A stretch of DNA of 64,000 nt from positions 124,001 to 188,000 of the forward strand of contig NZ_CP108677.1 in NCBI RefSeq assembly GCF_035994945.1, read 5' to 3'. Made by a program: the position numbers and the translations under genes. The notes beneath the pieces are model-generated. The model made no database searches. It was not told the DNA's origin and saw only the letters and a program-made list of their open reading frames with translations. Of the stretch, positions 31,346 through 55,534 are shown in pieces. Source of the stretch: Streptomyces sp. NBC_01216 (GTDB taxonomy: Bacteria > Actinomycetota > Actinomycetes > Streptomycetales > Streptomycetaceae). Positions within the stretch are counted from its first letter, which is position 1, and each line of letters opens with the position of its first letter.

Positions 31346-32629
31346 ATGACCCGCACCGCGATGCAACGGACCACCACCACCGGCTGGATGCCGCTGGCGG
31401 CCCTGGCCACGGCCCAGTTCCTGGTCGTGCTGAGCGCTTCGATCGTGAACGTCGCCCTGCCCCGGATCCGGGCCGGGCTCGAGCTGTCGGAGACGGGCCA
31501 GGCATGGACGGTCAACGCCTACGTACTGGTCTTCGGCGCACTGCTGCTGCCGGGCGGGCGGGCAGGCGACGTATACGGCCTTCGCCGCGTGTTCCTTGTC
31601 GGCACCGGCCTGTTCGCCCTCTCCTCCCTGGGCGCGGCACTGGCGCCGACGGCGGGCACCCTGATCGCCTTCAGGGCCGTGCAGGGAGTCGGGGCCGCAC
31701 TGCTGGCACCCACGGCGCTGGCTCTCGTGCTGACGCTCTCTCCCGACGAGAAGCGGCGTGGCGCCGCGCTCGGAGTGTGGGGCGCGGTCTCCGGCGCCGG
31801 CGGGGCGGCGGGCGTGCTGCTGAGTGGGCTGCTCACCGACCTGTACGGCTGGCGTGCGGTGTTCGTCGTGATGGCGCCCCTGGCCCTGGCCGCGATGGCG
31901 GCCACCTGGCTGCTGGTCGGGGCCGACCAGCCACGCGGCGGAAGCCTGGACGCGCCGGGCGCGGTGACGGTGACGGCAGGTCTGGTCGCGCTCACCTACG
32001 GCCTGTCCGGCCCTTGGCCGCTCGCGGTGATAGGTCTGGCGCTGCTCGGCCTGTTCGCGGTGCTTCAGCGCCGTTCCGCCGACCCGCTGCTGCCTGCGCG
32101 TATGAGCGTGGTGGCGGCGTCCAATGTACTGATGGCGCTGCTGGGCGCGGTCTGGCTCGGCCTGTTCTACTTCCTGCCCCTCTACCAGCAGGGCACGCTG
32201 GGCTACTCGCCCTTGGAGGCAGGACTGACCCAGCTTCCCCTCGCCCTCGTGATCGCCCTCTCGTCGTGGGTCACGGGCAAGGTCTCCGGCCGCCCCGTAC
32301 TCCCCGTGGGTCTGCTGGTCCTCGCGGCCGGGCTGGCATGGCTGTCCCGAGCACCGGCCGACGGAAGCTTCCCCGTGGACCTGCTCGGCCCGACGCTCCT
32401 CATCGGCACCGGCCTGGGGGTGGCCTTCGTCCGGCTCACCGCGATGTCCTCCACGGGCGTCCCGGCCGCCGACAGCGGCCTGGCCGGCGGGCTGGTCAAC
32501 GCCACCCGGCAGATCGGCGGAGCCCTCGGTCTGTCCTTCCTGACCCTGCTCCCCTCCTCCGGCGCGGCCTTCCTGGCCTGCGCCGCCCTGACGCTGCTCA
32601 TCTCGGCTCTCTCGACCCGGAAGGCATGA
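31346..32629 (+). CDS. MFS drug/metabolite exporter, cassette copy 1
   Basis: 427 aa, shorter than the 14-helix EmrB/QacA type but with its motifs: NVALPRIRAGLELSETGQAW, GALLLPGGRAGDVYGLRRVF, FRAVQGVGAALLAPTALAL, GVWGAVSGAGGAAGVLLSGL. The family exports hydrophobic compounds by proton antiport. It overlaps the carotenoid oxygenase gene by four bases (ATGA), so the pair is translationally coupled. Related MFS genes stand next to the other two oxygenases (intact at 54038, broken at 44503). Confidence 0.9.
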   Translation: MTRTAMQRTTTTGWMPLAALATAQFLVVLSASIVNVALPRIRAGLELSETGQAWTVNAYVLVFGALLLPGGRAGDVYGLRRVFLVGTGLFALSSLGAALAPTAGTLIAFRAVQGVGAALLAPTALALVLTLSPDEKRRGAALGVWGAVSGAGGAAGVLLSGLLTDLYGWRAVFVVMAPLALAAMAATWLLVGADQPRGGSLDAPGAVTVTAGLVALTYGLSGPWPLAVIGLALLGLFAVLQRRSADPLLPARMSVVAASNVLMALLGAVWLGLFYFLPLYQQGTLGYSPLEAGLTQLPLALVIALSSWVTGKVSGRPVLPVGLLVLAAGLAWLSRAPADGSFPVDLLGPTLLIGTGLGVAFVRLTAMSSTGVPAADSGLAGGLVNATRQIGGALGLSFLTLLPSSGAAFLACAALTLLISALSTRKA

Positions 32630-33996
32630 CCATGACGCTGGAAAAGCCCTACATCAGCGGCCACTTCACTCCCGTCACCGACGAGATCACCGGCCACGAG
32701 CTGAAGGTACGCGGCACTCTCCCGCCCGAGCTGAACGGCCGCTACTTCCGCAACGGTCACAACCCGAAGCCTGGCATCACCCCCACCCACTGGTTCCGCG
32801 GTGAGGGCATGCTCCACGGCGTCCGCCTCAAGGACGGCCGGGCCGAGTGGTACCGCAACCGCTGGGTGCGCACCCCCTTCCTGGACGGCGTGCCGTTCAC
32901 CGGAACCGAGCTCGACGTCAGCGCCGCCGCCACCAACATCATTTTCCACGGAGGCCGCTACCTGGCCCTGCAGGAGGCCAACCTGCCCTGGGAGGTCAGC
33001 GCCGGCCTCGACACGATCGGTGTCTACGACTTCGGCGGCAAGCTCACCAGCTCGATGACCGCCCACCCCAGAGAGGACCCGCAGACCGGCGAACTGCACT
33101 TCTTCAGCTACAGCCCCTTCCCGCCGTATCTGACCCACTACGTCGCCGACGCCTCCGGCGCCATCGTCAGCTCCCAGGTCGTGGACGGCTCCGGCCCGTC
33201 GCTGATGCACGACTTCGCCATCACCCGTGAGCACGTCGTCTTCATCAACTCGCCGGTGGTCTTCGACCACGCCGAGCACTCCGGCATCCCCTACCGCTGG
33301 CACGACGACGTCCCGCTGCGCATCGGCGTGATGCCGCGCGCCGGAGGCAGGACCACCTGGTTCGAGGCACCCGACCAAGCGGCCCTGCTGCACGTCGCCA
33401 ACGCCTACACCGACGCGCAGGGCCGGGTCGTCCTCGAAGCACCGCGCTTCGACCGTTCCGCCTGGGAGAACTCGTGGAAGTGGTGGGTCGGTGCTCCCGG
33501 CTACGGCACCAGCCCCGACGCCGGCTCGACCTTCCACCGGTGGATCATGGATCCGGCCACGGGCAAGGTCACGACCGCGTCCCTCAACGACCTGGTCACC
33601 GAGTTCCCGTCGATCAACGACGTCCACACAGGCTCGGACTACCGCTACAGCTACGCCATCGCCTTCCCCGGCGCGGGCCTGTCGGGCTACCACACCGTCA
33701 GACTCGACTCCCGGACCGGCGAGCAGAAGCTGCTCGCGCACGGCGAGGGCCGGATGCCCGGCGAGGCCGTCTTCGCGCCCGCCGACGGCGGTACCGCCGA
33801 AGACGACGGCTACCTGCTCACCATCGTCAGCGACCTCAAGACCGACACCTCGGAGCTGCTCGTCCTGGACGCGAGCGATCTGAGCACCGTCGCCGCCGTC
33901 GAGCTCCCCCGCAGGGTACCCGCCGGCATCCACGGCGACTGGATCCCCGACTCCGAGACACCTGCCCGCCCCACCTCGGCCGAGATCACGGCCTGA
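32626..33996 (+). CDS. Carotenoid oxygenase family protein, cassette copy 1
   Basis: 456 aa. It is a seven-bladed propeller, non-haem Fe(II) enzyme family that cleaves carbon-carbon double bonds in carotenoids, apocarotenoids or stilbenes. The four iron-binding His sit in MTAHPRED, SLMHDFAITREH, LLHVANAYTDAQ and GIHGDWIPDSE. Other family blocks are RNGHNPKPG, HWFRGEGMLHGVRL, WYRNRWV and GELHFFSYSPFPPYL. The ATG at 32626 overlaps the MFS stop; an ATG two codons on is equally possible. No carotenoid pathway is in the window, so the substrate is unknown. Confidence 0.9.
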   Translation: MTMTLEKPYISGHFTPVTDEITGHELKVRGTLPPELNGRYFRNGHNPKPGITPTHWFRGEGMLHGVRLKDGRAEWYRNRWVRTPFLDGVPFTGTELDVSAAATNIIFHGGRYLALQEANLPWEVSAGLDTIGVYDFGGKLTSSMTAHPREDPQTGELHFFSYSPFPPYLTHYVADASGAIVSSQVVDGSGPSLMHDFAITREHVVFINSPVVFDHAEHSGIPYRWHDDVPLRIGVMPRAGGRTTWFEAPDQAALLHVANAYTDAQGRVVLEAPRFDRSAWENSWKWWVGAPGYGTSPDAGSTFHRWIMDPATGKVTTASLNDLVTEFPSINDVHTGSDYRYSYAIAFPGAGLSGYHTVRLDSRTGEQKLLAHGEGRMPGEAVFAPADGGTAEDDGYLLTIVSDLKTDTSELLVLDASDLSTVAAVELPRRVPAGIHGDWIPDSETPARPTSAEITA

Positions 33997-34047: not shown

Positions 34048-34245
34048 TTCCTGTCCATCGAATCCACCGTCTACGCGGTCGACACAAGCGACGCCCCGCA
34101 CCGCATCCTGCGGGGCGGCCCCGCGCACGCCGTCATCGGCGCGCACCAGTGGACCTTCGCCGAGGACGGCGACGCTGTCGTCGTCCGTACCCGGGAGTCC
34201 TGGGCGGGCGAGGCCGTCGACACCGACCGGGATCTTCATCCGCTG
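34048..34245 (+). pseudogene. SRPBCC-family fragment, cassette copy 1
   Basis: FLSIESTVYAVDTSDAPHRI, LRGGPAHAVIGAHQWTFAED and VVRTRESWAGEAVDTDRDL align with the central third of the intact SRPBCC protein at 53498 (IVWGGPANGITGVHVWTFEQ, VIVRTEESWSGAPVD). The first roughly 65 and last roughly 25 residues are absent. It lies after the oxygenase, whereas in copies 2 and 3 the SRPBCC gene lies between MFS and oxygenase. Confidence 0.7.
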
Positions 34246-36962: not shown

Positions 36963-37176
36963 GGGGCCGTTGTCAGCAGGAGCGGGGGCGGCGCCGACAG
37001 CAGGGGCGGGCGCGGGTACCCGGAGCCGGGGCGGGAGTGGGCGCGGCGCCCGGAGCAGGAACGGGGATGGAGGGGTGACGCGCGTCTGGTTGGCCGGGGT
37101 GGCCTGAGCCGCGGCCGCGGCTGTGAGCCTGTCTGCTGGTGACGTTGCTCTGGCGGGGGGGCGAGCAACCCGGCAG
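36963..37176. other. GC-rich spacer
   Basis: Low-complexity GGGGCGG-rich sequence between the LRV gene and the 808-bp repeat. No gene is supported. Confidence 0.4.
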
Positions 37177-37984
37177 GGGCGAGCTGAACCGGTGAGTGTT
37201 CGGGAGCGTCGTCTCACGGGGTGGGCGGGGTCCAGTCGGCGGGCAGGCCGGACTGGGAGAGGACGGAGTTGAGGCTGTAGTAGTCCTGGTCGGAGGCGAT
37301 CCGGTGGTGGGCGTCGAGGTCGAGGAGGGTTGCCATCGGCACGGCGAACGGCTTGGGCGCACCTTTCAGGTGGCCGGAGTAGACCGATTCGACGGTGATG
37401 TGGTCACCGTCGCGGTGGGTGGCCTTCACCGTGACGTGGACGTCGTCGATGAGGCTGTCGGTGCGGGCCTTCCAGCCGGAGACGTCCTGGCGGCCGTGGA
37501 AGGTGACGCCCAGGCCCTGGTCGGTGTAGGTGCCGTCCGCGGTGAACAGGTCGCCGAGCGCTTGGGGGTCGGCGCCGTTCCAGGCGGCGGCCCACGCGGT
37601 GACGGCCTTCGGCGGGCGCTCCTGGTCGGGCCACGCGACGGCGGCGGTGGTGCCGAGTACGGCGCAGACGGCCGTGGCGCTGATCAGCACGGTCAGGATA
37701 CGGCGCGGGCTGGACTTCATGATGGGGCTCCTTCGAGTGGCGACTGTGGTCGAGGTGGCCGGTCGGGACAGGGGAACGTTCGATGAGTACGTGTCAGGGG
37801 ACCAGGACGACCTTGCCGGAGACGGTGCCGGACTCGGCCAGCCGCAGCGCCTCGGCAGCCTCGACGAGCGGCAGTCGGGCGGCGATACGGGCCGTGACCT
37901 CACCACGGCGCACGGCCGCGAAAACCTCGGCGAGATCGGCGCCCGACCGAGCCCGGAAACGATCCCCACCCAGCACCCGGCCGG
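37177..37984. repeat. 808-bp direct repeat, copy A
   Basis: Matches 51198-52005 base for base apart from one difference I found (A at 37695, G at 51716). The offset is a constant 14,021 bp. It carries the NTF2-like gene and the last about 190 bp of the alcohol dehydrogenase gene. This copy is the likely source, since the dehydrogenase is whole here and cut in copy B. Both repeat edges fall inside otherwise unrelated sequence. Confidence 0.95.
37214..37720 (-). CDS. Secreted NTF2/SnoaL-like protein (copy A)
   Basis: 168 aa. An N-terminal signal or anchor (MKSSPRRILTVLISATAVCA) is followed by a SnoaL-like cone fold (AVTAWAAAWNGADPQALGDL, FTADGTYTDQGLGVTFHGRQ, IDDVHVTVKATHRDGDHITV). The fold binds small hydrophobic ligands or acts as an isomerase; the activity here is unknown. 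It follows the dehydrogenase by 73 bp on the same strand, so the two probably form an operon under the TetR regulator. Copy B differs by Leu10 to Pro (ILTVL to IPTVL), inside the signal. Confidence 0.85.
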   Translation of the reverse strand: MKSSPRRILTVLISATAVCAVLGTTAAVAWPDQERPPKAVTAWAAAWNGADPQALGDLFTADGTYTDQGLGVTFHGRQDVSGWKARTDSLIDDVHVTVKATHRDGDHITVESVYSGHLKGAPKPFAVPMATLLDLDAHHRIASDQDYYSLNSVLSQSGLPADWTPPTP

Positions 37985-38825
37985 CCCAGATGTTGTAGAA
38001 GTGGGCGCGGCGTCCATTGGGCAGGGTGTTCCAGAGCCAGGTGCGGGCGAGGATCTTCAGGACGGGCCACTGCTTGGAGCCGGTGTCGTCGCGGGTGGAG
38101 GCGCTGCCGTAGGAGACGAGGGTGCCGCCGGGGGCGAGCAGGTGCCAGGAGTCGACGACGCTCCGGCCGCCGACGTGGTCGAAGACGGCGTCGACCCCGC
38201 CGGGTGCCAGTTCGCGGACCCGCGTGGGCACGTCGCCGGCACGGTAGTCGACCGGGAGTACTGCCAGTTCCCGCAGGGCTTCGTGGTGTCGGGCGGAGGC
38301 GGTGCCGATGACCTTCACGCCCGCCGCGCGGGCGAGCTGGACCAGGACCGAGCCGACACCGCCGCTGGCGCCGTGCACCAGGACGGTCTGTCCGGCCCGT
38401 ACCCGGGCCTTGCGGTGCAGCATCTGCCAGGCGGTGATGCCGTTGACCACGACGGTCTCGGCCTCGGCGGCCGTGAGGCCCTCCGGGACTCGGACCGCGT
38501 CGTCGGCGTCGACGACGACGTGGCTGGCCCACCCGCCGACCTTCACCAGCGCGGCCACCCGCTGCCCGGTCAGGGCCGGGTCGACGCCCTCGCCGGTGGT
38601 CAGCACCCGGCCGACCAGGTCATAGCCGGGTACGAACGGGAAGGCCGGCTGGTCGTAGTAGCGTCCGCGGCGCATCTGCTGCTCGGCGAACGAGACGCCG
38701 GTCGCCTCCATGGCGACCACGATCTGCCCCCGGCCCGCCTCCGGAACGGCACTCTCGTGGATTTCCAGGCCCTCCGGCTCCACGATGCCCGGCAGGACGA
38801 CCTCGATGCGACGTTCGGTGCTCAT
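37794..38825 (-). CDS. Quinone oxidoreductase-type medium-chain dehydrogenase
   Basis: 343 aa. It is a zinc-independent MDR fold with an N-terminal GroES-like domain (FPFVPGYDLVGRVLTTGEGV) and an NADPH-binding Rossmann domain (VLVHGASGGVGSVLVQLARA). The structural-zinc cysteines of alcohol dehydrogenases are missing, as in quinone oxidoreductases. The family reduces quinones or enones with NADPH. It is divergent from a TetR gene, with repeated ATAAC-NTCTAAC sites between, a standard arrangement for induction by an electrophile or drug. Its last 190 bp are duplicated at 51815-52005. Confidence 0.9.
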   Translation of the reverse strand: MSTERRIEVVLPGIVEPEGLEIHESAVPEAGRGQIVVAMEATGVSFAEQQMRRGRYYDQPAFPFVPGYDLVGRVLTTGEGVDPALTGQRVAALVKVGGWASHVVVDADDAVRVPEGLTAAEAETVVVNGITAWQMLHRKARVRAGQTVLVHGASGGVGSVLVQLARAAGVKVIGTASARHHEALRELAVLPVDYRAGDVPTRVRELAPGGVDAVFDHVGGRSVVDSWHLLAPGGTLVSYGSASTRDDTGSKQWPVLKILARTWLWNTLPNGRRAHFYNIWAGRVLGGDRFRARSGADLAEVFAAVRRGEVTARIAARLPLVEAAEALRLAESGTVSGKVVLVP

Positions 38826-38950: not shown

Positions 38951-39607
38951 ATGAGCGAACCGGACACAAGGACACCGAGGGAGCGATACCGGGCGCAGGT
39001 GCAGGAGGAGATCAAGCGGCACGCCTGGGGGCAGATCGCCACCGCCGGCGCCTCCGCGCTGTCCCTCAACGCCATCGCCAAGCAGATGGGCATGAGCGGG
39101 CCGGCCCTCTACCGGTACTTCGCCAACCGCGACGAGCTGATCACCGAACTCGTCAAGGACGCCTACCGCGGCCTGGCCGACACCTTCGCCGCCCGCGTCG
39201 AGGCCGGCGCCGACCTCGACGACCTGGCGGACGCACTGCGCAGGTGGGCCCTGGACAACCCCCAGCGGTACTTCCTGCTCTACGGCACTCCCGTGCCCGG
39301 GTACCGAGCGCCCGGGGACACCACGCGCATCGCCGACGAGATCATGGCGCACCTCCTCGACGTCTGCGCCGCCGGGCAGCCGACCACCACGCCGCACCCA
39401 CTCGACAGCCACGTCGCCGAGCACCGCGACGGGACCGACGAACGCCCGGCCCCGTCGCGGACGACCGGCAGCCGGGCCCTCGCCTTCTGGACCCGCCTGC
39501 ACGGCGTCCTCTCACTCGAACTCGCCGGACACTTCACCGGCATGGGACTCGACCCCGCCGAGCTCTACGCCGACGAGGTGCGAGCACTCGGGGACCAGTG
39601 GGGCTGA
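38951..39607 (+). CDS. TetR-family regulator (WHG-domain type)
   Basis: 218 aa. The N-terminal helix-turn-helix is ALSLNAIAKQMGMSGPALYR with YFANRDELITELV. The C-terminal ligand domain, with LRRWALDNPQRYFLLYGTPV and PGY and a C-terminal LAFWTRLHGVLSLELAGHFT, is of the WHG type common in actinomycetes. It should repress the divergent dehydrogenase-NTF2 operon and itself. The ATG is preceded by GGAAGGCGGGTC. Confidence 0.9.
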   Translation: MSEPDTRTPRERYRAQVQEEIKRHAWGQIATAGASALSLNAIAKQMGMSGPALYRYFANRDELITELVKDAYRGLADTFAARVEAGADLDDLADALRRWALDNPQRYFLLYGTPVPGYRAPGDTTRIADEIMAHLLDVCAAGQPTTTPHPLDSHVAEHRDGTDERPAPSRTTGSRALAFWTRLHGVLSLELAGHFTGMGLDPAELYADEVRALGDQWG

Positions 39608-41682: not shown

Positions 41683-42075
41683 ATGACGCCGACCGACATC
41701 ACCCGCGCGATCAACGACCTGCTGTTCACTCCGGGCCTCGATCTCGACACGGCCCTCGAGCGTCATTTCAGCACCGACTACCGCCAGCGCACCGACGGCG
41801 TGTGGAGCGACCGGTCCGCCTTCGCCCAGCACATCGACCGCCTCCGGTCCCTGATCCACAGCGGACACGTCGAGGTGCACGACGAGTTCCGCGACGGTCC
41901 ACGCTACGCCGACCGTCACACCGTCACCCTCACGCTCCGCGACGGCCGTACCTCCCGCACCGAGGTGTACCTCTTCGGCCGCTTCGCTCCCGACGGACGC
42001 TTCGAGAGCGTCGAGGAGACCACCCTCCTGCTGTCCGGCAACGCCGAGGACAGGAAACTGGGATCGGTCAGATGA
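41683..42075 (+). CDS. SnoaL-like protein, 130 aa (paralogue 1)
   Basis: 130 aa cone-fold protein. FSTDYRQRTDGVWSDRSAFA, HIDRLRSLIHSGHVEVHDEF and RYADRHTVTLTLRDGR are shared closely with the protein at 56113, which is also 130 aa. A strong ribosome binding site (GGGAGGAG) precedes the ATG. It is probably a ligand-binding or isomerase-type small protein acting with the P450 upstream; that pairing is inferred from position only. Confidence 0.85.
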   Translation: MTPTDITRAINDLLFTPGLDLDTALERHFSTDYRQRTDGVWSDRSAFAQHIDRLRSLIHSGHVEVHDEFRDGPRYADRHTVTLTLRDGRTSRTEVYLFGRFAPDGRFESVEETTLLLSGNAEDRKLGSVR

Positions 42076-42373: not shown

Positions 42374-44377
42374 ATGGCGTCCGTCGAGAAGAGACTGAGC
42401 AGCGCACGTGTCCGGTTCTTCATCGCCCGGGAGGAGGAACTCGACCGCTTCGCCAAGGCCTTGGCCGGTGACGCGCAGGCGCCGTTCGCCTTCTGGCTCT
42501 TCGGACCGGGTGGCATCGGCAAGTCGACACTGCTGCGTCGCCTGGCCGACGACACGCGTGCCGAGGACCGGCCGCTCCTGGAGATCGACGGCCGCTTCGT
42601 GAGCCGCGACCCCGCCGATTTCGAACGTCTCGCCCGTCCTTTCCTGGAGGTACCCGGCACCGTCCTGTTCATCGACTCCTTCGAGCACTGCCAGTGGCTG
42701 GAGAGCTGGCTGTGGCAGCGGTTCCTGCCCCGCGCCGCCGACGACACCCTGGTGGTCCTGGCCGGCCGCCACGCACCGCAGCCCCAGTGGACCGCCGACC
42801 CGGCCTGGGCCGGGCTGCTGCACGTCCGTGAACTCGAACCGTTCTCCGCGGAGCAGGCCCGGAACATGCTGGCCACCGCGCAGGTGCCGCCCCCCTTGCG
42901 GGAGCGGATACGGCGGTTCGCGGGGGGCAACCCCCTGGCCCTGTCCCTCGCGACCGCCGCCAAGGCGGCGGACTGGAACCGGGAGGAGGTCTGGTCGCCC
43001 TCCGCCGACGTCCTGCGCACCCTGCTGTCAGGCCTGATCGGGGAGGTACCGAGCCCGGCCCACCGCCGTGCCCTGGAGGTGGCGGCCCAGTCCTACTCGA
43101 CCTCCGAGGAGCTGCTCGCCGCGGTGCTCCCCGACGAGGACGCCCACCGGCTCTTCGACTGGCTCAGGAACCTGCCCTTCATGGAGCCCACCCACCGCGG
43201 GCTGCACCCGCACGACGCCGCACGCGAGACGCTCTCCGCCGACCTGCGCTGGCGTGCCCCCCACGCATTCCTGACGATGCGCCAACGACTCGCTGACGAG
43301 TACCTGCGTCTGCTGCGCGAGGCACCCGACGAAGAACGGGTGTGGACCGTCACCGACGAACTCTTCTACCTCTTCCGCGAAGGAGAGATCGTGGCGCGCC
43401 TGCGCACCTGGTCCCGTGAGGACGAGGTGCACGACCGGCCCCTCCACCCGGACGACCTGGACGTGGTGCTGCGCATGGCCGAGCAGACCGAGGGACCGGA
43501 GTCCGCCGCGCTGGTGCGCTACTGGGCACGACGCCAGCCACAGGCGTTCAGCGTGTACCGGCTGGTGAGCACCGGCAGGATCGTGGCGTTCACCGCCCGC
43601 CTCGCCCTGCCCGCTCCCGCCGACCCCGAGGACCTGGCCACCGATCCCGTGGTGGCGGCCGCCTGGTCGTACGCCGACGCCACCGCACCGGTGCGTTCCG
43701 GCGAGCACATCGGCATCAGCCGCTTCTCGGTCTACCCCGAGCGCTACCAGGTTCCGTCACGCGTCATCGACCTGAGCAGTTCCCGCGCGCAGGCGGAATC
43801 CGCCCGCGCCGTCGGACGCGCCTACGGCTTCGCCGTCTGGCAGGACGCCGAGACGTGGTCCGCGCGCGTCCGGGGCAGTCTCGCCGATACCGGTGCGCGG
43901 CCTCGGGTCGGCGCGCATACGTACGGCGTGTTCGCCGTCGACTGGCGCCAGGTGCCCGTGGAGACCTGGCTGCGTCACTTCATCGCGGACACCTCCATCC
44001 CCACCCAGGCCGGGCCGTCCGGCGTCTCGCGCGACATGTTCGACCAAGCCGTACGCGAGGCCCTCGCGCACTGGCGCGACAAGGGCGCCTTCGCCGCCTG
44101 CGCCCTGACGCGCACCCGTCTGGCGGCCGATCTCGGCGAACCCGCCGAGGAACTGCGCACCCTGCTCCGCCAGGCCGTGGACGACCTCGCGCACGACCCG
44201 CGCGGGGTGCGTGCCCGCGACGCTCTGACGGCCGGCTATTTCTCCGGTGCGCCCACCCAGGAGGCGGCCGCCCGCCGCCTGGGCTTGCCGTACGGCACCT
44301 ACCGGCGCCACCTGCGCCAGGGTCTGGACCTGCTCAGCGAGGCGCTGTGGCAGCAGGAGTTGCACGGGCCCCGGTGA
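42374..44377 (+). CDS. STAND/AAA-type ATPase regulator with C-terminal helix-turn-helix
   Basis: 667 aa. REEELDRFAKAL, then Walker A LFGPGGIGKSTLLRRLADD (about residues 42-60) and Walker B PGTVLFIDSFEH. The middle is helical with no recognised repeat. Residues about 440-570 (FRVG-like RVGAHTYGVFAVDWRQVPVE) could be a small sensor domain. The end, TQEAAARRLGLPYGTYRRHL then RQGLDLLSEALW, resembles a region-4/LuxR-like DNA-binding helix-turn-helix. It is probably a signal-dependent transcription activator. It lies between the P450-SnoaL pair and cassette copy 2; either could be its target. Confidence 0.75.
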   Translation: MASVEKRLSSARVRFFIAREEELDRFAKALAGDAQAPFAFWLFGPGGIGKSTLLRRLADDTRAEDRPLLEIDGRFVSRDPADFERLARPFLEVPGTVLFIDSFEHCQWLESWLWQRFLPRAADDTLVVLAGRHAPQPQWTADPAWAGLLHVRELEPFSAEQARNMLATAQVPPPLRERIRRFAGGNPLALSLATAAKAADWNREEVWSPSADVLRTLLSGLIGEVPSPAHRRALEVAAQSYSTSEELLAAVLPDEDAHRLFDWLRNLPFMEPTHRGLHPHDAARETLSADLRWRAPHAFLTMRQRLADEYLRLLREAPDEERVWTVTDELFYLFREGEIVARLRTWSREDEVHDRPLHPDDLDVVLRMAEQTEGPESAALVRYWARRQPQAFSVYRLVSTGRIVAFTARLALPAPADPEDLATDPVVAAAWSYADATAPVRSGEHIGISRFSVYPERYQVPSRVIDLSSSRAQAESARAVGRAYGFAVWQDAETWSARVRGSLADTGARPRVGAHTYGVFAVDWRQVPVETWLRHFIADTSIPTQAGPSGVSRDMFDQAVREALAHWRDKGAFAACALTRTRLAADLGEPAEELRTLLRQAVDDLAHDPRGVRARDALTAGYFSGAPTQEAAARRLGLPYGTYRRHLRQGLDLLSEALWQQELHGPR

Positions 44378-44502
44378 CCGCGAGGAACCGGGAGCCGGTC
44401 GTATCGCCCTTGGAACGAGTGAGCAGGGGTGGACAGTGATGGACAGTGCCCGCCCGCTCCCGGCCTGGCAGGTGGACAGCGGTCGAGCCGAGTCTGTGTG
44501 CC

Positions 44503-45113
44503 ATGAACGTCGGACGCACGCCGAGGGATTCGGCAGCCGCAGCGGGTCACCGGCCGAGCGTGCTGATCGCCGCGCGTGCCGTCCAGGGACTCGCCGCATC
44601 GGCGCTCGCCCCGGCCCTCGCTCGCCCCGGCCTTGGCCCGGTTCCCCTCCGAACCCGGGCGCGGCGAGGCGCTGGGTATATGGGGTGCGGTCACCGGGGC
44701 CGGCGGAGCGGGCGGCGTCCTGCTGGGAGGGGCCCTCACCCAGACGTGGGGGTGGCCCTGGATCTTCCACTCGGTCGCCCTCGGATCGGTGCTCGTCCTG
44801 GCCTTCGTGTCGGCCGCGGTCCCGCCTGGGGCCGGGCGAGGAGCGGGACGCGCTGCCGGGCGAGCGGCCGGGCGAACGGTCGGGCGAACGGTCGGGCGGT
44901 TCGATCTGACAGGCACCATCACCGTCACTCTCGCCCCGACGTGCCTGGTGGGGTGCCTGGCCACCGCGCGGAAATCCGGCTGGACGGAGGCAGAATGCTG
45001 GGCGCCGTGAGCTCCGCCGCCGTCCTCCTGGCGGCCTTCGCCGTGATCGAGGTCCACCGGCGGGACGCCCCGGTGTCGCCGCGGCTGCTCACCACCGGCC
45101 GGTGGCCGCCGGA
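44503..45113 (+). pseudogene. Broken MFS exporter, cassette copy 2
   Basis: After MNVGRTPRDSA the sequence jumps to SVLIAARAVQGLAASALAPA, losing about 75 residues (three helices) compared with the copy at 54038. A frameshift then leads to FPSEPGRGEALGIWGAVTGA and GGAGGVLLGGALTQTWGWPW, and another to MLGAVSSAAVLLAAFAVIEV with HRRDAPVSPRLLTTGRW. About 250 C-terminal residues are gone. GRGAGRAAGRAAGRTVGRT is a local expansion. The upstream region (44430-44520) still matches the upstream region of the intact copy at 55534. Confidence 0.8.
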
Positions 45114-45114
45114 G

Positions 45115-45305
45115 GGACGGTCCCAGCGGAGGCGTCACCGGCATCCACGTGCTGGCCGTTCGAACAGACCGGCGACCACGCCATCGTCCGCATCGAGGAG
45201 TCCTGGAGCGGTGCCCCGGTCGTCGCCGCTCCCGCCGCTCCGGGCAAGGCATCCACTACTCGCCGCTGGGGAGCTGGATCGGTCGACTCAGGACCCGTGC
45301 CGAGC
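45115..45305 (+). pseudogene. SRPBCC fragment, cassette copy 2
   Basis: GGVTGIHV in one frame, then EQTGDHAIVRIEESWSGAPV in the next, correspond to GITGVHVWTFEQVGDHVIVR and TEESWSGAPVD of the intact protein at 53498. An end resembling SLENWLTHLKTRSEQ reads SPLGSWIGRLRTRAEQG. The first half of the gene is deleted, fusing it to the broken MFS gene. Confidence 0.75.
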
Positions 45306-45364
45306 AGGGTGTCTGACTCCCTGTCGCCACCCCGCGGTCGCCCGTGCACCGAAAGGTTCCCACC

Positions 45365-46729
45365 ATGACCTCCTCCCAGCCGTACCTGACCGGCCACTAC
45401 ACTCCGGTCGCCGATGAGATCACCGTCACCGGTCTGACCGTCGACGGCAGCCTGCCGCCGGAACTGACCGGCCGCCTGCTACGCAACGGCCACAACCCCA
45501 AGCCGGGTGTGACCCCCGCGCACTGGTTCAAGGGCAGCGGCATGGTCCACGGCATCCGCCTGCGTGATGGGCGGGCCGAGTGGTACCGCAACCGGTGGGT
45601 CCACACTCCCGCCCTGGACGGCGCCCCCTACATGACCCCACACGGGCCGGACTTGACCGTCAGCACGGCCGGCACCCACGTCATCGAGCACGCCGGACGG
45701 CTGCTCGCCCTGTGCGAAGCGAACCTGCCCTTCGAACTCACCCGGACACTGGACACCGTCGGCGCCTATGACTTCCACGGAAAGCTGCGCACCGCGATGA
45801 CCGCTCATCCCAAAGAGGACCCGGTGACCGGCGAACTCCACTTCTTCGGCTCCTCGCCCTTCCCTCCGTTCCTCACCTACCACGTCGCGGACGCCAAGGG
45901 CGAGATCGTCCACAGCGCGGAGGTGCCCGGCGCCACCGCAGCCCTCAAGCACGACTTCGCCGTCACCCGGCACCACGTGGTCTTCGTCGAGGGCAACGTC
46001 ACCTTCGACCCGACCGATCGGTCCGGCATCCCCTACGGCTGGAGCGACCGGCAGCAGGCGCGCATCGGCATCCTGCCGCGCGGCGCCGACGGCGCCCGGC
46101 TCGTCCGCTGGTTCTCCATCGAGCCGGGAAACATGCCGCACATCGCCAACGCCTACGAGGACGGCCAGGGCCGCGTCGTCCTGGAAGGCCCCGCCGTGGA
46201 CCGAGAGGGTTTCCGGCTCTCGTGGAACTGGTGGACCGGCGCACCCGGCCGCGGGGCCGAGCCCACCTCCCGCTCCTACACCCGCCGCTGGATCGTGAAC
46301 CCGGTGGCCGGCAGCGTGGACGAACAGATCATCGACGACCTGCCCGTGGAGTTCCCCACCCTCAACGGGAACCGCCTGGGCTCCGAGCACCGCTACCAGT
46401 ACGCCGTCTCCTTCCCGGACGAGGCGGGCTACGGCGGCTACGGCGTGGTGAAGTACGACCGGACCACGGGCGCCCGCCGCATCCACCAGGCCGGCGACGC
46501 CCGCATGCCCGGCGAAGCCGTCTACGTCCCCGCCGCCGGAGCCACACGGGAGGACGACGGCTATCTGCTCACCGTCGTCTCCGACCTCAAACAGGACGCC
46601 TCGCAACTCCTCGTCCTCGACGCCTCCGGCCTCGATCGCATCGCCACCGTTCATCTCCCCCGCCGCGTCCCCGCGGGGGTCCACGGCTCGTGGATCCCCG
46701 ACGACGGCACGACCGACGATCAGAACTGA
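45365..46729 (+). CDS. Carotenoid oxygenase family protein, cassette copy 2
   Basis: 454 aa, exactly the length of copy 3 and very similar to it throughout. Iron-binding His at about 148 (MTAHPKED), 196 (LKHDFAVTRHH), 259 (MPHIANAYED) and 440 (GVHGSWIPDD). All conserved blocks are intact (RNGHNPKPGVTP, HWFKGSGMVHGIRL), so it looks functional although its partner genes are destroyed. The former promoter lies about 860 bp upstream, so expression may depend on readthrough of the MFS remnant. Confidence 0.9.
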   Translation: MTSSQPYLTGHYTPVADEITVTGLTVDGSLPPELTGRLLRNGHNPKPGVTPAHWFKGSGMVHGIRLRDGRAEWYRNRWVHTPALDGAPYMTPHGPDLTVSTAGTHVIEHAGRLLALCEANLPFELTRTLDTVGAYDFHGKLRTAMTAHPKEDPVTGELHFFGSSPFPPFLTYHVADAKGEIVHSAEVPGATAALKHDFAVTRHHVVFVEGNVTFDPTDRSGIPYGWSDRQQARIGILPRGADGARLVRWFSIEPGNMPHIANAYEDGQGRVVLEGPAVDREGFRLSWNWWTGAPGRGAEPTSRSYTRRWIVNPVAGSVDEQIIDDLPVEFPTLNGNRLGSEHRYQYAVSFPDEAGYGGYGVVKYDRTTGARRIHQAGDARMPGEAVYVPAAGATREDDGYLLTVVSDLKQDASQLLVLDASGLDRIATVHLPRRVPAGVHGSWIPDDGTTDDQN

Positions 46730-49621: not shown

Positions 49622-51103
49622 TCAGGTGGTGCATACGGTGCCGGGGGCGGGGAGTTCCCCGGTGGTCAGGTAGTGGTTGGTGGCTTTCTGGACGCACTCG
49701 GATGCCAGGAACATGCTGTAGTCGTCTCCTTCGTGGGCGAGGACGACGCTGCCGGGCAGCTGGGCGGCCATGGCCGCACCCGCCTGGAACGGTGCGAGGG
49801 CCTGGTGGGTGGACTGGAGGACCAGTGCGGGCGGAGCGCCGTGGATCGGGGCGCCCGCTGTGACGGTCTGGGCCGGGGTGGGCCAGCCGAGGCAGCCGGC
49901 GATGGCCTTGTAGGAGCGCACGGCACCGCCGAGGTGCGGGGATACCCGGGCGAGAGCCTTCCCCAGACGGGCCAGCTGGGCGAAAGTGCGCACAGGGCGG
50001 GCGGTGTCGAGACAGGCGGGCACCTGTACCTGGACCGGGTCGAGGGTGTCGTCCGGGTTGATGGTGAAGTCGGTCGAGTCACCCGACTGAGCCTTGACGA
50101 TGGCGTTCGCGAAGTCCGGCCAGGTCCGTCCGGACAGGGTCAGGTAGTCCTGGGTGGCCTCACGGATGTCCTCACCGCTCAGCGGCTGGTGGGCCCTGCC
50201 CCCGGTCGGGATCGGGGCGCGGTCCGCACGGGCGACGAGGGCGTCGTACTCGGCCGCGGCGTCCTTGCCGTGCAGCGCGCAGTCCTTCGACGTGGCGCAC
50301 CACGCGGTGAAGCGGTTGAAAGCCGTCTCGGCGGTGGCCGCCTCCTGGGTGACCCGGGTGAGAGGCGAGACGGTGTCGTCCAGAGCGGTGTCGAGGACCA
50401 TGGTGCGCAGCCTGCCGGGGAACAGCTTGGCGTAGGTGCGCCCGAGCAGCGTGCTGTAGTGGATGCCGTACCAGTTCAGCTGCTTTTCGCCCAGCCCGAT
50501 CCGCACCGCCTCGAAGTCCCGTGCGGTGCTGGTCTGGTCGACGTGGGCGGTGAGCCGGCCGTTCCGGCGCCCACAGTCCTCGGCGAAGGCCCGGTTGTGG
50601 TTCACCAGCGCCTTGAACGCGGCCTTGTCCTTCGGGAAGTGGCTCACTGAGGCGGGCTTGAGCGGTTTCGCGCAGAGGATCGGCGTGCTGTGCCCCACTC
50701 CACGCGGGTCCACCGCGACCACGTCGAAGTTCTGGGTCATGGCACCGGCGAAAGACGGGAAGTGGATGTGCATCGCCAGTCGCAACTGCTCGATGGAGGA
50801 ACCGCCGGCTCCGTCGTTGAGAAGCAGGGTGCCCTGACGGTGCGCCTGGTCATCCGCCGGACGGCGGACCATGGCAAGGGTGGTGCTCCCGGCGCGGGGG
50901 CGGGACCAGTCCACCGGAACCTGAAGCGATCCGCACTGCATGCCCGCGAAATCAGTGTCCGCGCAAGGACGCCAGCTGATAGCGCTCGCGGATTGCCGGT
51001 AGTCGGCGTTCTCCGTCGTCGCGAGCGCCGGTACGGCGATGGTGGCTGTGAGCGCGGAGAGGACCGCGACGGTCCAGGCTGCGGTCTTACGGGTTCTTGT
51101 CAT
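49622..51103 (-). CDS. Secreted alpha/beta-hydrolase of the tripeptidyl-peptidase type, nucleophile lost
   Basis: 493 aa. The signal peptide (RKTAAWTVAVLSALTATIAV ending PALA) is followed by a SlpD/tripeptidyl-aminopeptidase-like hydrolase: SWRPCADTDFAGMQCGSLQV, VPVDW, LLLNDGAGGSSIEQLR, FDVVAVDPRGVGHSTPILC, and a C-terminal cap (SECVQKATNHYLTTGELPAP, GTVC). Relatives have YGxSYGT at the nucleophile elbow; here it is WYGIHYSTLLGRTY, so the Ser is His and the next Gly is Ser. The protein may be inactive or work differently. The NTF2-like copy B gene lies 131 bp upstream on the same strand. Confidence 0.85.
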   Translation of the reverse strand: MTRTRKTAAWTVAVLSALTATIAVPALATTENADYRQSASAISWRPCADTDFAGMQCGSLQVPVDWSRPRAGSTTLAMVRRPADDQAHRQGTLLLNDGAGGSSIEQLRLAMHIHFPSFAGAMTQNFDVVAVDPRGVGHSTPILCAKPLKPASVSHFPKDKAAFKALVNHNRAFAEDCGRRNGRLTAHVDQTSTARDFEAVRIGLGEKQLNWYGIHYSTLLGRTYAKLFPGRLRTMVLDTALDDTVSPLTRVTQEAATAETAFNRFTAWCATSKDCALHGKDAAAEYDALVARADRAPIPTGGRAHQPLSGEDIREATQDYLTLSGRTWPDFANAIVKAQSGDSTDFTINPDDTLDPVQVQVPACLDTARPVRTFAQLARLGKALARVSPHLGGAVRSYKAIAGCLGWPTPAQTVTAGAPIHGAPPALVLQSTHQALAPFQAGAAMAAQLPGSVVLAHEGDDYSMFLASECVQKATNHYLTTGELPAPGTVCTT

Positions 51104-51146
51104 GGCGACTTTCCTTGGTCGGGGCCTCGTCCTGTGCGGATTCAAG

Positions 51147-51185
51147 GCGTTGTTCCGGGTGCTGTGGAGCGTTGTTCCGGGTGCT
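51147..51185. repeat. Tandem 17-bp repeat upstream of the hydrolase
   Basis: GCGTTGTTCCGGGTGCT occurs at 51147-51163 and again at 51169-51185, a 22-bp period (two helix turns), between the hydrolase start (51103) and the 808-bp repeat. The position suits an operator. No partner protein is assigned. Confidence 0.6.
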
Positions 51186-51234
51186 CGGGGAGGAGACGGG
51201 CGAGCTGAACCGGTGAGTGTTCGGGAGCGTCGTC

Positions 51235-51741: not shown

Positions 51742-51814
51742 GATGGGGCTCCTTCGAGTGGCGACTGTGGTCGAGGTGGCCGGTCGGGACAGGGGAACGT
51801 TCGATGAGTACGTG

Positions 51815-52005
51815 TCAGGGGACCAGGACGACCTTGCCGGAGACGGTGCCGGACTCGGCCAGCCGCAGCGCCTCGGCAGCCTCGACGAGCGGCAGTCGGG
51901 CGGCGATACGGGCCGTGACCTCACCACGGCGCACGGCCGCGAAAACCTCGGCGAGATCGGCGCCCGACCGAGCCCGGAAACGATCCCCACCCAGCACCCG
52001 GCCGG
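51815..52005 (-). pseudogene. 3' end of duplicated dehydrogenase gene
   Basis: About 63 C-terminal codons (RVLGGDRFRARSGADLAEVF, AAVRRGEVTARIAARLPLVE) identical to the end of the gene at 37794. It is cut at the repeat edge, with no start or catalytic part. Confidence 0.9.
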
Positions 52006-52062
52006 GGCGGAGATCGACTCACGGGCCGGGCAGCTGCCCCGGCGGTGCGTCGTCGCTGTCGA

Positions 52063-53427
52063 TCAGCCCTCGGCGGCCTCCAAGGCGGTGTCGGGGATCC
52101 AGGACCCGTGAATGCCGGCGGTCACACGGCGGGGCAGGTGAACGGTGGCGATCCGGTCGAGGCCTACGGCGTCCAGGACCAGCAGCTGTGAGGCGTCCTG
52201 CTTGAGGTCGGAGACGACGGTGAGGAGATAGCCGTCGTCCTCGTTGGTGGCACCGGCGGCGGGAACGAACACCGCTTCACTGGGCAGCCGGGCATCGCCG
52301 ATCTGGTGGATGCGGCGGGCGCCGGTGGCGCGGTCGTACTTGACGACGCCGTAGCCGCCGAAGCCTTCCTGGTCCGGGAAGGACACCGCGTACTGGTAGC
52401 GGTGCTCGACACCGAGACGGTCCTCGTTGAGGGTCGGGAACTCCACCGCGAGGTCATCGATGATCTGCTCGTCGACCGTGCCGGCCACCGCGTCGATCAC
52501 CCAGCGGCGCATGTAGGAGCGGGTGTTGGGCTCGGCGCCGCGGCCGGGCGCGCCGACCCACCAGTTCCACGAGAGCCGGAACCCCTCGCGGTCCACGGTG
52601 GGGCCTTCCAGGACGATGCGTCCCTGGCCGTCCTCATAGGCGTTGGCCGCGTGCAGCATGTTGCCGGGTTCGACGGAGTACCAGCGGATGTGCTGGGCAC
52701 CTTCGCCTCCCCGGGGCATGACGCCGATGCGGGGCGGCCACTCGTCGCTCCAGCCGTACGGAATGCCGGAGTGCTCGGCGGGGTCGAAGGTGACGTTGCC
52801 TTCGATGAAGACCACGTGGTGGCGGGTGATGGCGAAGTCGTGCTTGAGAGAGGCGGTCGCTCCTGGGACCTCGGCGCTGTGGACGACCTCGCCCTTGGCG
52901 TCCGCGACGTAGTACGTCAGGAACGGCGGGAACGGTGAGGAGCCGAAGAAGTGGAGCTCTCCGGTCACCGGATCGACTTTGGGGTGCGCGGTCATGGCGG
53001 TGTTCACCCGGCCGTTGAAGTCATGGGCGCCGACCGTCTCCAGGCTCCGGGTGAGCTCGAAGGGCAGGTTGGCCTCACAGAGGGCCAACAGGCGGCCGGC
53101 GTGCTCGATGACATGGGTGCCGGCGGTGCTCGCGGTCAGGTCGGGCCCCCTGTCGGTCATGTAGGGGGCGCCGTCCAGGGCGGGAGTGTGGACCCACCGG
53201 TTGCGATACCACTCGGCACGGCCCTCGCGGAGCCGGATCCCGTGGACCATGCCGCTGCCCTTGAACCAGTGCGTCGGGGTGACGCCGGGCTTGGGGTTGT
53301 GGCTGTTGCGGATCAGGCGGCCGGTCAGCTCCGGGGGAAGGCTGCCTTCGACGGACAGATTGGTCGCGGTGATCTCATCGGTGACGGGGGTGTAGTGGCC
53401 GGTCAGGTAAGGCTTCGTAGCAGCCAT
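52063..53427 (-). CDS. Carotenoid oxygenase family protein, cassette copy 3
   Basis: 454 aa. Iron-binding His at 148 (MTAHPKVD), 196 (LKHDFAITRHH), 259 (MLHAANAYED) and 440 (GIHGSWIPDT). RNSHNPKPG has Ser where the other two copies have Gly. It is closer to copy 2 than to copy 1. It follows the SRPBCC gene by about 70 bp and the MFS gene before that, so this is the complete cassette. The ATG at 53427 gives the same N-terminus as the other copies (KPYLTGHYTPVTDEIT). Substrate unknown. Confidence 0.92.
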   Translation of the reverse strand: MAATKPYLTGHYTPVTDEITATNLSVEGSLPPELTGRLIRNSHNPKPGVTPTHWFKGSGMVHGIRLREGRAEWYRNRWVHTPALDGAPYMTDRGPDLTASTAGTHVIEHAGRLLALCEANLPFELTRSLETVGAHDFNGRVNTAMTAHPKVDPVTGELHFFGSSPFPPFLTYYVADAKGEVVHSAEVPGATASLKHDFAITRHHVVFIEGNVTFDPAEHSGIPYGWSDEWPPRIGVMPRGGEGAQHIRWYSVEPGNMLHAANAYEDGQGRIVLEGPTVDREGFRLSWNWWVGAPGRGAEPNTRSYMRRWVIDAVAGTVDEQIIDDLAVEFPTLNEDRLGVEHRYQYAVSFPDQEGFGGYGVVKYDRATGARRIHQIGDARLPSEAVFVPAAGATNEDDGYLLTVVSDLKQDASQLLVLDAVGLDRIATVHLPRRVTAGIHGSWIPDTALEAAEG

Positions 53428-53497: not shown

Positions 53498-53938
53498 TCA
53501 GGCAAGTTGTTCCGAACGGGTCTTGAGGTGGGTGAGCCAGTTCTCCAGGGAGTCGTGAAGGGCCCTGCCGAGGTGGTCGGTCGCGGCGTCGACCGGTGCG
53601 CCGCTCCAGGACTCCTCGGTGCGGACGATGACGTGATCGCCGACCTGCTCGAATGTCCACACGTGGACGCCGGTGATGCCGTTGGCGGGACCGCCCCAGA
53701 CGATCCGCTCGCCGGGGACCAGTTCGTGCACGGTGGAGGTGATCTCCAGGCCGTGGGTGCGCCAGCGGAAGGAGTCGCCTGGCACCAGCAGACCGTTGAG
53801 TTCGGCCTGGTCGATGTCCGTGTTCCAGGTGGGCCAGGCGGCGATGTCGGTGTGCAGGTCCCACACCGTCGCGAGCGGGGCGTTGATCACGATGCTCAGA
53901 CGGACACGGACGGGGGCGGTCTCGTCGATGGTGAACAT
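53498..53938 (-). CDS. SRPBCC-family protein, cassette copy 3 (intact)
   Basis: 146 aa. It has the START/Bet v1-like helix-grip fold: VRLSIVINAPLATVWDLHTD, IAAWPTWNTDIDQAEL, FRWRTHGLEITSTVHELVPG, ERIVWGGPANGITGVHVWTF, then a long C-terminal helix (ALHDSLENWLTHLKTRSEQ). It binds hydrophobic ligands in a deep pocket and may be a cyclase or carrier. Position between an exporter and a carotenoid oxygenase suggests it handles the oxygenase's substrate or product. It is the only complete copy of three. Confidence 0.88.
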   Translation of the reverse strand: MFTIDETAPVRVRLSIVINAPLATVWDLHTDIAAWPTWNTDIDQAELNGLLVPGDSFRWRTHGLEITSTVHELVPGERIVWGGPANGITGVHVWTFEQVGDHVIVRTEESWSGAPVDAATDHLGRALHDSLENWLTHLKTRSEQLA

Positions 53939-54037: not shown

Positions 54038-55534
54038 TCAGGCGGGTCGCGGGCCGGAAGCAGGGCCGGGTGTGGAAGCACCGGCCGTGGCGGTGATGGT
54101 GGTTGTGGTCCGCTGGCTGATGCGGCGGGTGAGGAACTGTGCGAGAAGGGCTGTCAAGGCCAGGACCCCGGCGGCGACGGTGAAGGCCGCGCGGTAGCCG
54201 GCGGTGAGGGCCTCCGGATGGGGTTGGCGGGTGGCCGCGTGGGCGGTGACGGAGCCGGCCAGGGTGGTGAGGGCGGCGAGGCCGATCGCGCCTCCGACCT
54301 GGCGGGTGGTGTTCACCAGCCCGCCGGCCAGCCCCGCGTCCTGTCGCGGAACGCCCTCCACGGCGAATGCGGTGAGCTGCACGAAGGCGATGCTCAGACC
54401 GAGGCCGATCAGGATGCTCGGGCCGAGGACGTCGGCGAGGTAGCTCCCGTCGGCGCTGATCCGTGACAGCCACAGCAGCCCGGCCGCCTCGGTGAGCAGG
54501 GCCGCCGTCACGGTCGCGGGGCCGCCGATGCGCCGGGAGATGCGAGGCGCCAGGGCGGCGCCGAGCATATTGGCTCCGGCGAGGGGGAGTTGGCCTGCAC
54601 CGGTGACCAAGGGATTCGATCCGAGTACCAGTTGCTGATAAAGCGGCAGGAAGAAGAACAGGGCGATCCAAACAGACCCGAGCAGCGCCATGAGCAGGTT
54701 GCCCGCCGCGACCCTGCCGGTGGTGAACAGCCGCGGTGGCATCAGCGCGTCCGGTCGGCGAAGCTCGATCACCACGAAGGCACCGAGCAACGCGACGGCA
54801 CCGAGGAGGGCCCCGAGGACCCGGGCGTCCGCCCAGCCGGCCCCGCGTGCGGTGGTCAATCCCCAGACCAGGCAGGTCAGGGCGAGTGTGACGGTGGCAG
54901 TCCCCAGCAGGTCGAACCGCCCGGCGTTCCGGCCGGCCGTCGCCCGTGGCACGAGGGTCGCCACGGCGACCAGGACCAGCGCCGCCCCGAGCGCGACGGC
55001 GTGGAAGATCCAGGGCCAGCCCCATGCCTGGGTGAGCAGACCGCCCAGCAGGACGCCGCCCGCCCCTCCCGCGCCGGAGACCGCGCCCCACACGCCCAAG
55101 GCCCGGCCACGCCCGGGGCCGGACGGATACAGGTCCATCGTCAGAGCGAGCGCGGCTGGGGCGATGGCGGCGGCTCCGAGGCCCTGTACGGCGCGGGCCG
55201 CGATCAGCACGCCCGGGGAGGCGGCCACGCCGGCCGCCAGCGAGGACACCGCGAACAGCGCGAGGCCGGCCATCAGCACCCGGCGGCGCCCGAGCAGGTC
55301 GGCCGTCCGTCCACCCGCCAGGAGCAGCGCACCGAACGCGAGGCCGTAGGCGTTGACCACCCACGTGGTGCCGCCGTCCGACAGGCCCACACCGGCACGA
55401 ATCTGGGGCAGTGCCACGTTCACGATCGAGGTGGCGAGCATGACGGTGAACTGGGCCGCGGCGAGTGCCGCGAGCACGGCCGCCGGCCGAGGTGTCGGGG
55501 GCATCCGGCCCTTTTGTATGCGTCGGAGGTTCAT
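54038..55534 (-). CDS. MFS exporter of EmrB/QacA type, cassette copy 3
   Basis: 498 aa from the ATG at 55534; an ATG at 55504 (MPPTPRPAAV) is possible. Motifs: NVALPQIRAGVGLSDGGTTW, ALLLAGGRTADLLGRRRVLM, AARAVQGLGAAAIAPAALAL, GVWGAVSGAGGAGGVLLGGL. About 14 hydrophobic segments are visible, with a T/S/A/P tail. It is the first gene of the MFS-SRPBCC-oxygenase operon. The 80 bp upstream are conserved at the broken copy 2, showing a shared promoter or operator. Confidence 0.9.
   Translation of the reverse strand: MNLRRIQKGRMPPTPRPAAVLAALAAAQFTVMLATSIVNVALPQIRAGVGLSDGGTTWVVNAYGLAFGALLLAGGRTADLLGRRRVLMAGLALFAVSSLAAGVAASPGVLIAARAVQGLGAAAIAPAALALTMDLYPSGPGRGRALGVWGAVSGAGGAGGVLLGGLLTQAWGWPWIFHAVALGAALVLVAVATLVPRATAGRNAGRFDLLGTATVTLALTCLVWGLTTARGAGWADARVLGALLGAVALLGAFVVIELRRPDALMPPRLFTTGRVAAGNLLMALLGSVWIALFFFLPLYQQLVLGSNPLVTGAGQLPLAGANMLGAALAPRISRRIGGPATVTAALLTEAAGLLWLSRISADGSYLADVLGPSILIGLGLSIAFVQLTAFAVEGVPRQDAGLAGGLVNTTRQVGGAIGLAALTTLAGSVTAHAATRQPHPEALTAGYRAAFTVAAGVLALTALLAQFLTRRISQRTTTTITATAGASTPGPASGPRPA

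Follow-up and report, generated by a model that had tools for sequence, protein, structure and literature searches.

Three carotenoid oxygenase genes lie within about 24 kb of each other in Streptomyces sp. NBC_01216, each accompanied by intact or decayed genes for a predicted exporter of the major facilitator superfamily (MFS) and for a protein of the SRPBCC type. They are found in the 64,000 nucleotides of contig NZ_CP108677.1 (positions 124,001 to 188,000) that we analyzed and refer to as the window, and all coordinates given here count from its first letter. We suggest that all three belong to a family of regulated modules in actinomycetes that may cleave an exogenous or non-carotenoid conjugated lipid and export the products, a proposal to which we would give an even chance of being right.

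A profile search of the host genome (7.72 Mb in 4 contigs, 99.97% complete) returned three matches to the carotenoid oxygenase family PF03055, all of them inside this stretch (32665-33948 and 45401-46699 on the plus strand, 52093-53391 on the minus strand). With 355-361 bits against a cut-off of 27 and coverage of model positions 1-469 or 2-469 of 469, the encoded carotenoid cleavage dioxygenases (CCDs), here CCD1 to CCD3, are full-length members of the RPE65 family. Four histidines (H153, H201, H264, and H445 in A1 numbering), which we take to be the iron-binding residues, are invariant in a 16-row alignment that includes all three enzymes, as had been noticed in an earlier inspection of the bare DNA (the sequence-only reading). 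That reading had also described the three copies, their mixed orientation within 24 kb, and which of their genes are broken, and Pfam matches together with searches at the protein level bear out this inventory. Copy 1 consists of MFS1 (31346..32629, plus strand; PF07690, 1.1e-48), the type B oxygenase CCD1 (32626..33996, plus strand; PF03055, 1.7e-107), whose start overlaps the stop of MFS1, and a relic of the SRPBCC gene. In copy 2, relics of both the MFS and the SRPBCC gene precede the type A oxygenase CCD2 (45365..46729, plus strand; PF03055, 7.5e-106), which is the only intact gene of the three. Copy 3 is complete and comprises, all on the minus strand, MFS3 (54038..55534; PF07690, 1.8e-48), the intact SRPBCC/START-fold protein SRP3 (53498..53938; PF10604, 1.8e-15), and the type A oxygenase CCD3 (52063..53427 with the start at 53427; PF03055, 2.3e-107). 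The MFS_1 matches span 31346-32629 and 54038-55591, and the Polyketide_cyc2 (SRPBCC) match spans 53498-53938. Both transporters are predicted DHA2/EmrB-like exporters for which TIGR00711 is the best-scoring model, at 181.1 bits for MFS1 and 217.5 bits for MFS3, i.e., below its cut-off of 230.2. Decay has thus affected copies 1 and 2, and both MFS1 and MFS3 remain intact.

In the mechanism that we propose, a regulator encoded alongside (a LAL protein at copy 1, a STAND/AAA protein with a helix-turn-helix (HTH) motif at copy 2, and TetR proteins at many of the wider relatives of copy 3) would sense a hydrophobic conjugated compound that may be exogenous or stem from a non-carotenoid pathway. The SRPBCC protein, with its START fold, would bind this compound or its product, the presumed Fe(II) carotenoid oxygenase would split a C=C bond to yield aldehydes or ketones, and the DHA2-like MFS exporter would expel the product or surplus substrate, while genes for reductases of the medium-chain dehydrogenase/reductase (MDR) type, SnoaL-like proteins, cytochromes P450, and hydrolases might serve further processing at some loci. 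We infer the induction, the class of ligand, the order of steps, and the direction of export.

The association on which this proposal builds can be traced in other genomes. Of 572 confirmed loci from named actinomycete genomes, we took the 80 most similar to CCD3, in which a CCD is present by construction, of which 61 are from Streptomycetaceae, and whose genes were called with a home-made composition caller instead of a gene finder. Within 2.5 kb and on the strand of the CCD, an MFS gene is present in 63/80 loci, an SRPBCC gene in 45/80, and both in 42/80; against this near flank of 385 kb in total, only 2 further MFS and 2 further SRPBCC hits came from the 652 kb lying farther out or from the opposite strand. 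By family, MFS and SRPBCC genes accompany the CCD in 45/61 and 35/61 loci of Streptomycetaceae, 8/8 and 8/8 of Streptosporangiaceae, 3/3 and 2/3 of Micromonosporaceae, 2/2 and 0/2 of Pseudonocardiaceae, and 5/6 and 0/6 of Nocardiaceae. Distances among the CCDs correlate with those among their MFS neighbors (Mantel r 0.82, 63 rows) and SRPBCC neighbors (Mantel r 0.86, 43 rows), with none of 2000 permutations reaching either value, and within type A the coefficients are still 0.75 for MFS and 0.76 for SRPBCC. The MFS and SRPBCC genes are co-inherited with the CCD, and the association is real. Streptomyces-like genomes are rich in MFS and TetR genes, so that common families of this kind (MFS, TetR, SRPBCC) might simply have ended up around unrelated oxygenases by chance, but the enrichment of near over far flanks and the co-inheritance refute this by counts. 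Moreover, when 13 loci with CCDs of other types were fetched from the same genus, an SRPBCC gene adjoined in none and a weakly similar MFS gene in 2, and we consider a chance neighborhood scarcely credible.

A second sample of 101 genomes of the genus, which includes the window's own and partially overlaps the named set, places the three copies in context. A related CCD (E<=1e-80) occurs in 40 of these genomes and the CCD type discussed here in 17 (21 genes), using a threshold of >700 bits that was set after seeing a gap from 756.7 to 554.2. The genome of the window alone has three CCDs of this type, while two others have two, on separate contigs. At 17 loci, one per genome and with flanks of 1.5 kb, an MFS gene adjoins the CCD in 11 and an SRPBCC gene in 6. 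A search of plasmids found related CCDs in 105 records, with an identity of >=60% in two. The reciprocal search with the SRPBCC protein gave 17 matches above 150 bits (a threshold likewise set after seeing a gap, from 153.8 to 139.4), of which 7 lie by an intact CCD and 2 by fragmentary CCD matches, 3 by an MFS gene, 2 by TetR and/or MDR genes, and 3 by none of these within the 1.5-kb flank or the contig. Out of 24 more distant matches (100-140 bits), 14 were fetched (L141-L154), and 12 of these adjoin homologues of the window's TetR gene at 38951-39607 and/or MDR gene at 37794-38825. The SRPBCC family, standing beside CCDs as well as beside TetR/MDR genes, thus links the CCD cassette with an MDR-reductase unit.

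The three copies could conceivably have arisen in place, one cassette having been copied twice within the window and then decayed. They are closely packed, CCD2 and CCD3 are 82.7% identical, and a recent local duplication of 808 bp is present nearby. The CCDs were compared in a tree of 82 rows (79 loci plus the three window genes; the partial CCD of L083 was left out and is counted in the synteny table under A0, a remainder group), from which the borders of the A2 and A3 groups were also read off. CCD1 clusters with CCDs of three other Streptomyces (L059, L065, L072) at 100/100 support, and copy 1 has the order MFS-CCD-(SRPBCC relic), like the type B loci where a downstream SRPBCC gene exists (9/27), whereas copies 2 and 3 follow the order MFS-SRPBCC-CCD that is predominant in type A. 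Regulators differ along with gene order: LAL genes occur in 9/27 type B loci by gene groups, 8 of them divergent upstream, and TetR genes in 13/22 A3 loci by gene groups (14/22 by tblastn) but in 0/16 A2 loci. CCD1 thus belongs to a separate lineage and is no local duplicate of CCD2 or CCD3, which refutes triplication for copy 1. CCD2 sits in the A2 clade (98/96, DNA tree), which unites it with 16 genes from other genomes and from which CCD3 is excluded, and the SnoaL-like gene of copy 2 (SnoaLb, 41683..42075, plus strand; weak PF12680) has homologues 68-75% identical in 8/80 loci but only 53% identity to SnoaLd, a SnoaL-like protein encoded upstream of MFS3 (56113..56505, minus strand). The best tree separates CCD2 from CCD3, though an approximately unbiased (AU) test does not reject them as sisters (p=0.13), so a local duplication of these two is disfavored, and we think triplication as a whole quite improbable. 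The sequence-only reading had described three copies of one cassette and suggested trees as a check of local origin; as copy 1 stems from a different lineage and the other two fall in separate subclades, the three cannot be regarded as simple duplicates of a single cassette.

As to the substrate, the host seems unable to make carotenoids. Its two SQS_PSY genes stand in tandem, and one scores 313.3 bits with the HpnD model (cut-off 278.6), the other 324.2 bits with the HpnC model (cut-off 250.45), while no control genome passed either cut-off; by the scores of these two hopanoid models they are HpnC and HpnD. No crtI gene in the host genome exceeds the cut-off, the best match reaching 155 of 238 bits. 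As far as tested, the absence of a carotenoid pathway claimed before is thus supported, and on these grounds we rejected the idea that the substrate in this strain is a carotenoid of its own. More broadly, crtI is present in 9/17 genus genomes with this CCD type and in 36/84 without it (Fisher p=0.59), i.e., no tie was found between the CCD type and own carotenoid synthesis.

The top NCBIfam model for CCD1-3 is NF052295 (8'-apo-carotenoid 13,14-cleaving dioxygenase), presumably linked to the mycobacterial enzyme MtCCO, at 337.4, 351.2, and 345.5 bits, well below its cut-off of 675, compared to 152-183 bits (at most 182.5) for stilbene models, likewise below their cut-offs of 650 and 800. These scores bear on another possible role, the catabolism of plant phenolics, in which the CCDs would cleave stilbenes or phenylpropenes in the manner of lignostilbene dioxygenase or isoeugenol oxygenase and the MFS would expel toxic aldehydes. 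At the lysine position of stilbene cleavers (Lys164 of Cao1 by our reading), we find Gln in 6/6 type B rows and Cys in 10/10 type A rows. One report describes this lysine of PbLSD as docked against a hydroxyl of resveratrol (PMC6097328), and lignostilbene dioxygenases such as LsdA, NOV1, CAO1, and PbLSD differ from the window CCDs in a phenol-contacting residue as well as in profile scores. The missing lysine weakens the case for the stilbene substrate that had been envisaged from the sequence alone. Furthermore, inspection by eye of 18 recurrent gene groups revealed no group for ring cleavage or aldehyde dehydrogenase, and we find this role unlikely. Stilbene/chalcone-synthase-like genes gave 4 matches in the genome, 2 of which exceed the cut-off; all lie at a great distance from the window.

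Structural comparison is less decisive. Among solved structures, sequence searches list plant carotenoid 9,10-dioxygenase and VP14 first (9luz at 209 bits, 3npe at 203), and with a model of CCD3, Foldseek ranks plant CCD1/VP14 first while VIA-align places LsdA/NOV1 first with VP14 tied, so fold comparison based on this model does not separate stilbene from carotenoid cleavers. The plant CCD1/NCED enzymes (e.g., VP14) are the best structure matches both by sequence and by Foldseek but share only ~28-34% identity with the window CCDs, which have ~450 aa and belong to a bacterial operon in a host without a carotenoid pathway. Limocrocin-type polyene cleavage was also considered and set aside; the candidate cleaver there is reported to be an Fma-ABM-like monooxygenase, Lim18 (PMC11727611).

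The nearest experimental precedent that we found is the ccoR-cco1 pair of Mycobacterium kansasii. The TetR-type gene ccoR beside cco1 is reported to control carotenoid breakdown (PMC9861118), mutants with an insertion in the TetR gene were opposite in pigmentation to those with one in cco1 (the phenotypes being labeled WW and YY, which we read as white and yellow; PMC9861118, PMC5133782), and the non-carotenogenic M. tuberculosis retains the pair (PMC9861118, PMC5133782). This system (Rv0653c-Rv0654, with MtCCO) resembles the one described here in that an oxygenase beside a TetR gene is kept in a host without carotenoid synthesis, but the window adds MFS and SRPBCC genes, has other regulators, brings several versions together, and scores below the cut-off of NF052295. 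Three loci of the named set (L045, L046, L051), with TetR before the CCD and neither MFS nor SRPBCC in the locus, represent the simplest form and the one nearest in content to ccoR-cco1. A full-text literature search, with most subscription papers outside it, revealed no paper on an MFS-SRPBCC-CCD cassette by title or start of abstract; to this extent the system is undescribed, as had been proposed.

Regulator homologues (32 TetR, 21 AAA, 12 LAL) are present in 63/80 fetched loci. In 24 SRPBCC sequences, 24 columns are invariant, including Trp26, Trp35, Trp38, Trp59, Trp81, His92, Trp94, Glu109, and Trp111, which may line a conserved aromatic pocket. A model of SRP3 (pLDDT 96.3) has both TcmN-like cyclases and abscisic-acid receptors among its START-fold matches with similar Z scores; TcmN-type aromatase/cyclases and PYR/PYL receptors share the START/helix-grip fold with this model at 9-23% identity.

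Several observations weigh against the cleave-and-export proposal. No homologue of TetR, AAA, or LAL is found in 17/80 loci, an SRPBCC gene is missing in 35/80, and an MFS gene in 17/80. Given these gaps, the sequence-only reading went too far in calling the association of the three families stable, although the co-occurrence and co-inheritance behind that claim stand. A regulator and a CCD occur without adjoining MFS or SRPBCC genes in L016, L019, L036, L045, L046, and L051, and also in L101 and L103 (with flanks of 1.5 kb), so export is not obligatory. The three nearest relatives of copy 3 are without TetR (L004 has an AAA gene, L005 and L028 have none). In 23 of 50 named carriers checked, which were picked from the 80 loci, crtI is present, and there the cell's own carotenoid may be the substrate.

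Finally, the P450, SnoaL, and SRPBCC genes could equally form a small biosynthetic or signaling pathway in which the aldehyde or ketone released by the CCD would be cyclized or dehydrated by a cyclase-like SRPBCC protein (as in TcmN) and SnoaL, reduced by the MDR enzyme, and exported by the MFS as product or signal. We hold this to be possible but doubtful: the accessory genes are patchy, with the P450 in 10/80 loci and SnoaLb as sparse as stated above, and no scaffold-forming enzyme recurs by eye in the 18 gene groups (those found in >=4 loci) except for an AMP-ligase-like group in 5 loci. The SRPBCC fold fits abscisic-acid receptors and other START proteins equally well, so it does not support catalysis. 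A more speculative variant, which we deem improbable, is an apocarotenoid-like make-bind-export system in which the CCD would cleave a conjugated precursor from neighbors or plants, the START-fold partner would bind or cyclize the small product, and the MFS would export a signal or defense compound. This would be analogous, with no homology implied, to the plant set of NCED, abscisic acid, and PYL receptor.

Beyond the three gene families, several neighbors that the sequence-only reading had left out accompany CCDs elsewhere as well, i.e., the LAL gene, the MDR reductase and TetR genes, the P450-SnoaL-AAA genes (40361-44377), and a TAP hydrolase gene. The 808-bp repeat, too, was absent from that reading. 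At copy 1, the LuxR-LAL regulator (28540..31515, minus strand; AAA_16 and GerE by Pfam) is divergent from the cassette, and LAL genes hold this place upstream of MFS-CCD in L059, L060, L065, L066, L072, L075, L077, and L079 (LAL homologues occur in 12/80 CCD loci overall). MFS1 is 89-90% identical to the MFS proteins of L059 and L072 and 85-90% to those of all three groupmates of CCD1, and CCD1 itself is up to 91% identical to CCDs in other Streptomyces. What remains of the SRPBCC gene is its middle part (34051..34233, plus strand; 47.5% to SRP3 by tblastn), matching residues 62-119 of the 141-residue SRPBCC segment of L065 at 70% identity (tblastn). The stretch separating copy 1 from the MDR gene encodes a HEAT/LRV repeat protein of 667 aa (34959-36962), for which none of the 80 CCD loci has a homologue at E<=1e-10. 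Nonribosomal peptide synthetase genes (with condensation, AMP-binding, carrier, and epimerase-like domains) and an MFS gene at 14507-27495 precede the CCD island.

Copy 2 retains the A2 locus arrangement P450-SnoaL-AAA-CCD. Its CypX/CYP134-like P450 (40361..41596, plus strand; TIGR04538 at 503.2 bits with a cut-off of 500; PDB 3nc3, 2.4e-144) has homologues that precede the AAA regulator at the loci where they occur. This similarity hinted at a cyclodipeptide pathway; no cyclodipeptide synthase match was found in the genome, though no control matched either, and none was obvious by eye in translations of 39601-40460. The putative regulator of copy 2 is a STAND/AAA NTPase whose C-terminal part weakly matches a sigma-4-like HTH (42374..44377, plus strand; AAA_16 below cut-off, Sigma70_r4_2 at E 0.047), homologues of which lie upstream in 15/16 A2-type loci and on the opposite strand in the 16th. 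It is followed by the MFS relic (~44446..45102, plus strand; tblastn pieces in differing frames), with frame changes and N- and C-terminal losses, and the SRPBCC relic (~45119..45310, plus strand; tblastn pieces in two frames). A deletion joint at 45102/45114 removed ~1.0 kb relative to copy 3. In L016, L019, L036, L101, and L103, the AAA gene is followed by the CCD without an intervening MFS or SRPBCC gene, so middle genes were lost in other loci besides copy 2.

Copy 3, whose SRP3 is 84% identical to the SRPBCC protein of L006, has no regulator gene next to it. Downstream lies a TAP-like alpha/beta hydrolase (49622..51103, minus strand; PF08386) that resembles mycobacterial carboxylesterase A/Hip1 and is probably secreted, judging its N terminus by eye; homologues (71-79%) follow the CCD in L006, L008, L011, L020, L031, and L032. 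Between copies 1 and 2, an MDR oxidoreductase of the quinone oxidoreductase/VAT-1-like type (37794..38825, minus strand; Pfam, and PDB 6lhr at 1.3e-48) is divergent from a TetR regulator (38951..39607, plus strand; Pfam). Homologues of the MDR gene flank 10/80 CCD loci (one weak, at 34%) and those of the TetR gene occur in 9/80 (three at just 31-41%), with the divergent pair in five (L023, L060, L078, L080, L082). Next to the MDR gene lies SnoaLa, an NTF2/SnoaL-like protein with a signal-peptide-like N terminus by eye (37214..37720, minus strand, start 37720; PF12680), inside a direct repeat of 808 bp with 1 mismatch (37177-37984 and 51198-52005). The two copies are ~14 kb apart and constitute a very recent local duplication; the second, located between CCD3 and the hydrolase gene, carries SnoaLc and the 3' end of an MDR gene, and we infer that it derives from the MDR-SnoaL locus. 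A search for inverted repeats found 0 pairs around the first copy of the block (36900-38300) and 2 short ones around the second (50900-52400); no transposon signature was seen.

These observations touch on the question why non-carotenogenic bacteria keep carotenoid cleavage oxygenases. An operon that recurs with its regulators, its exporter, and a single conserved pocket protein offers a handle on the natural substrate because the ligand of the regulator and that of the pocket protein should converge on one compound. The three versions in a single strain would further permit a side-by-side comparison of substrate range, and the decayed copies hint at which parts of the cassette are dispensable.

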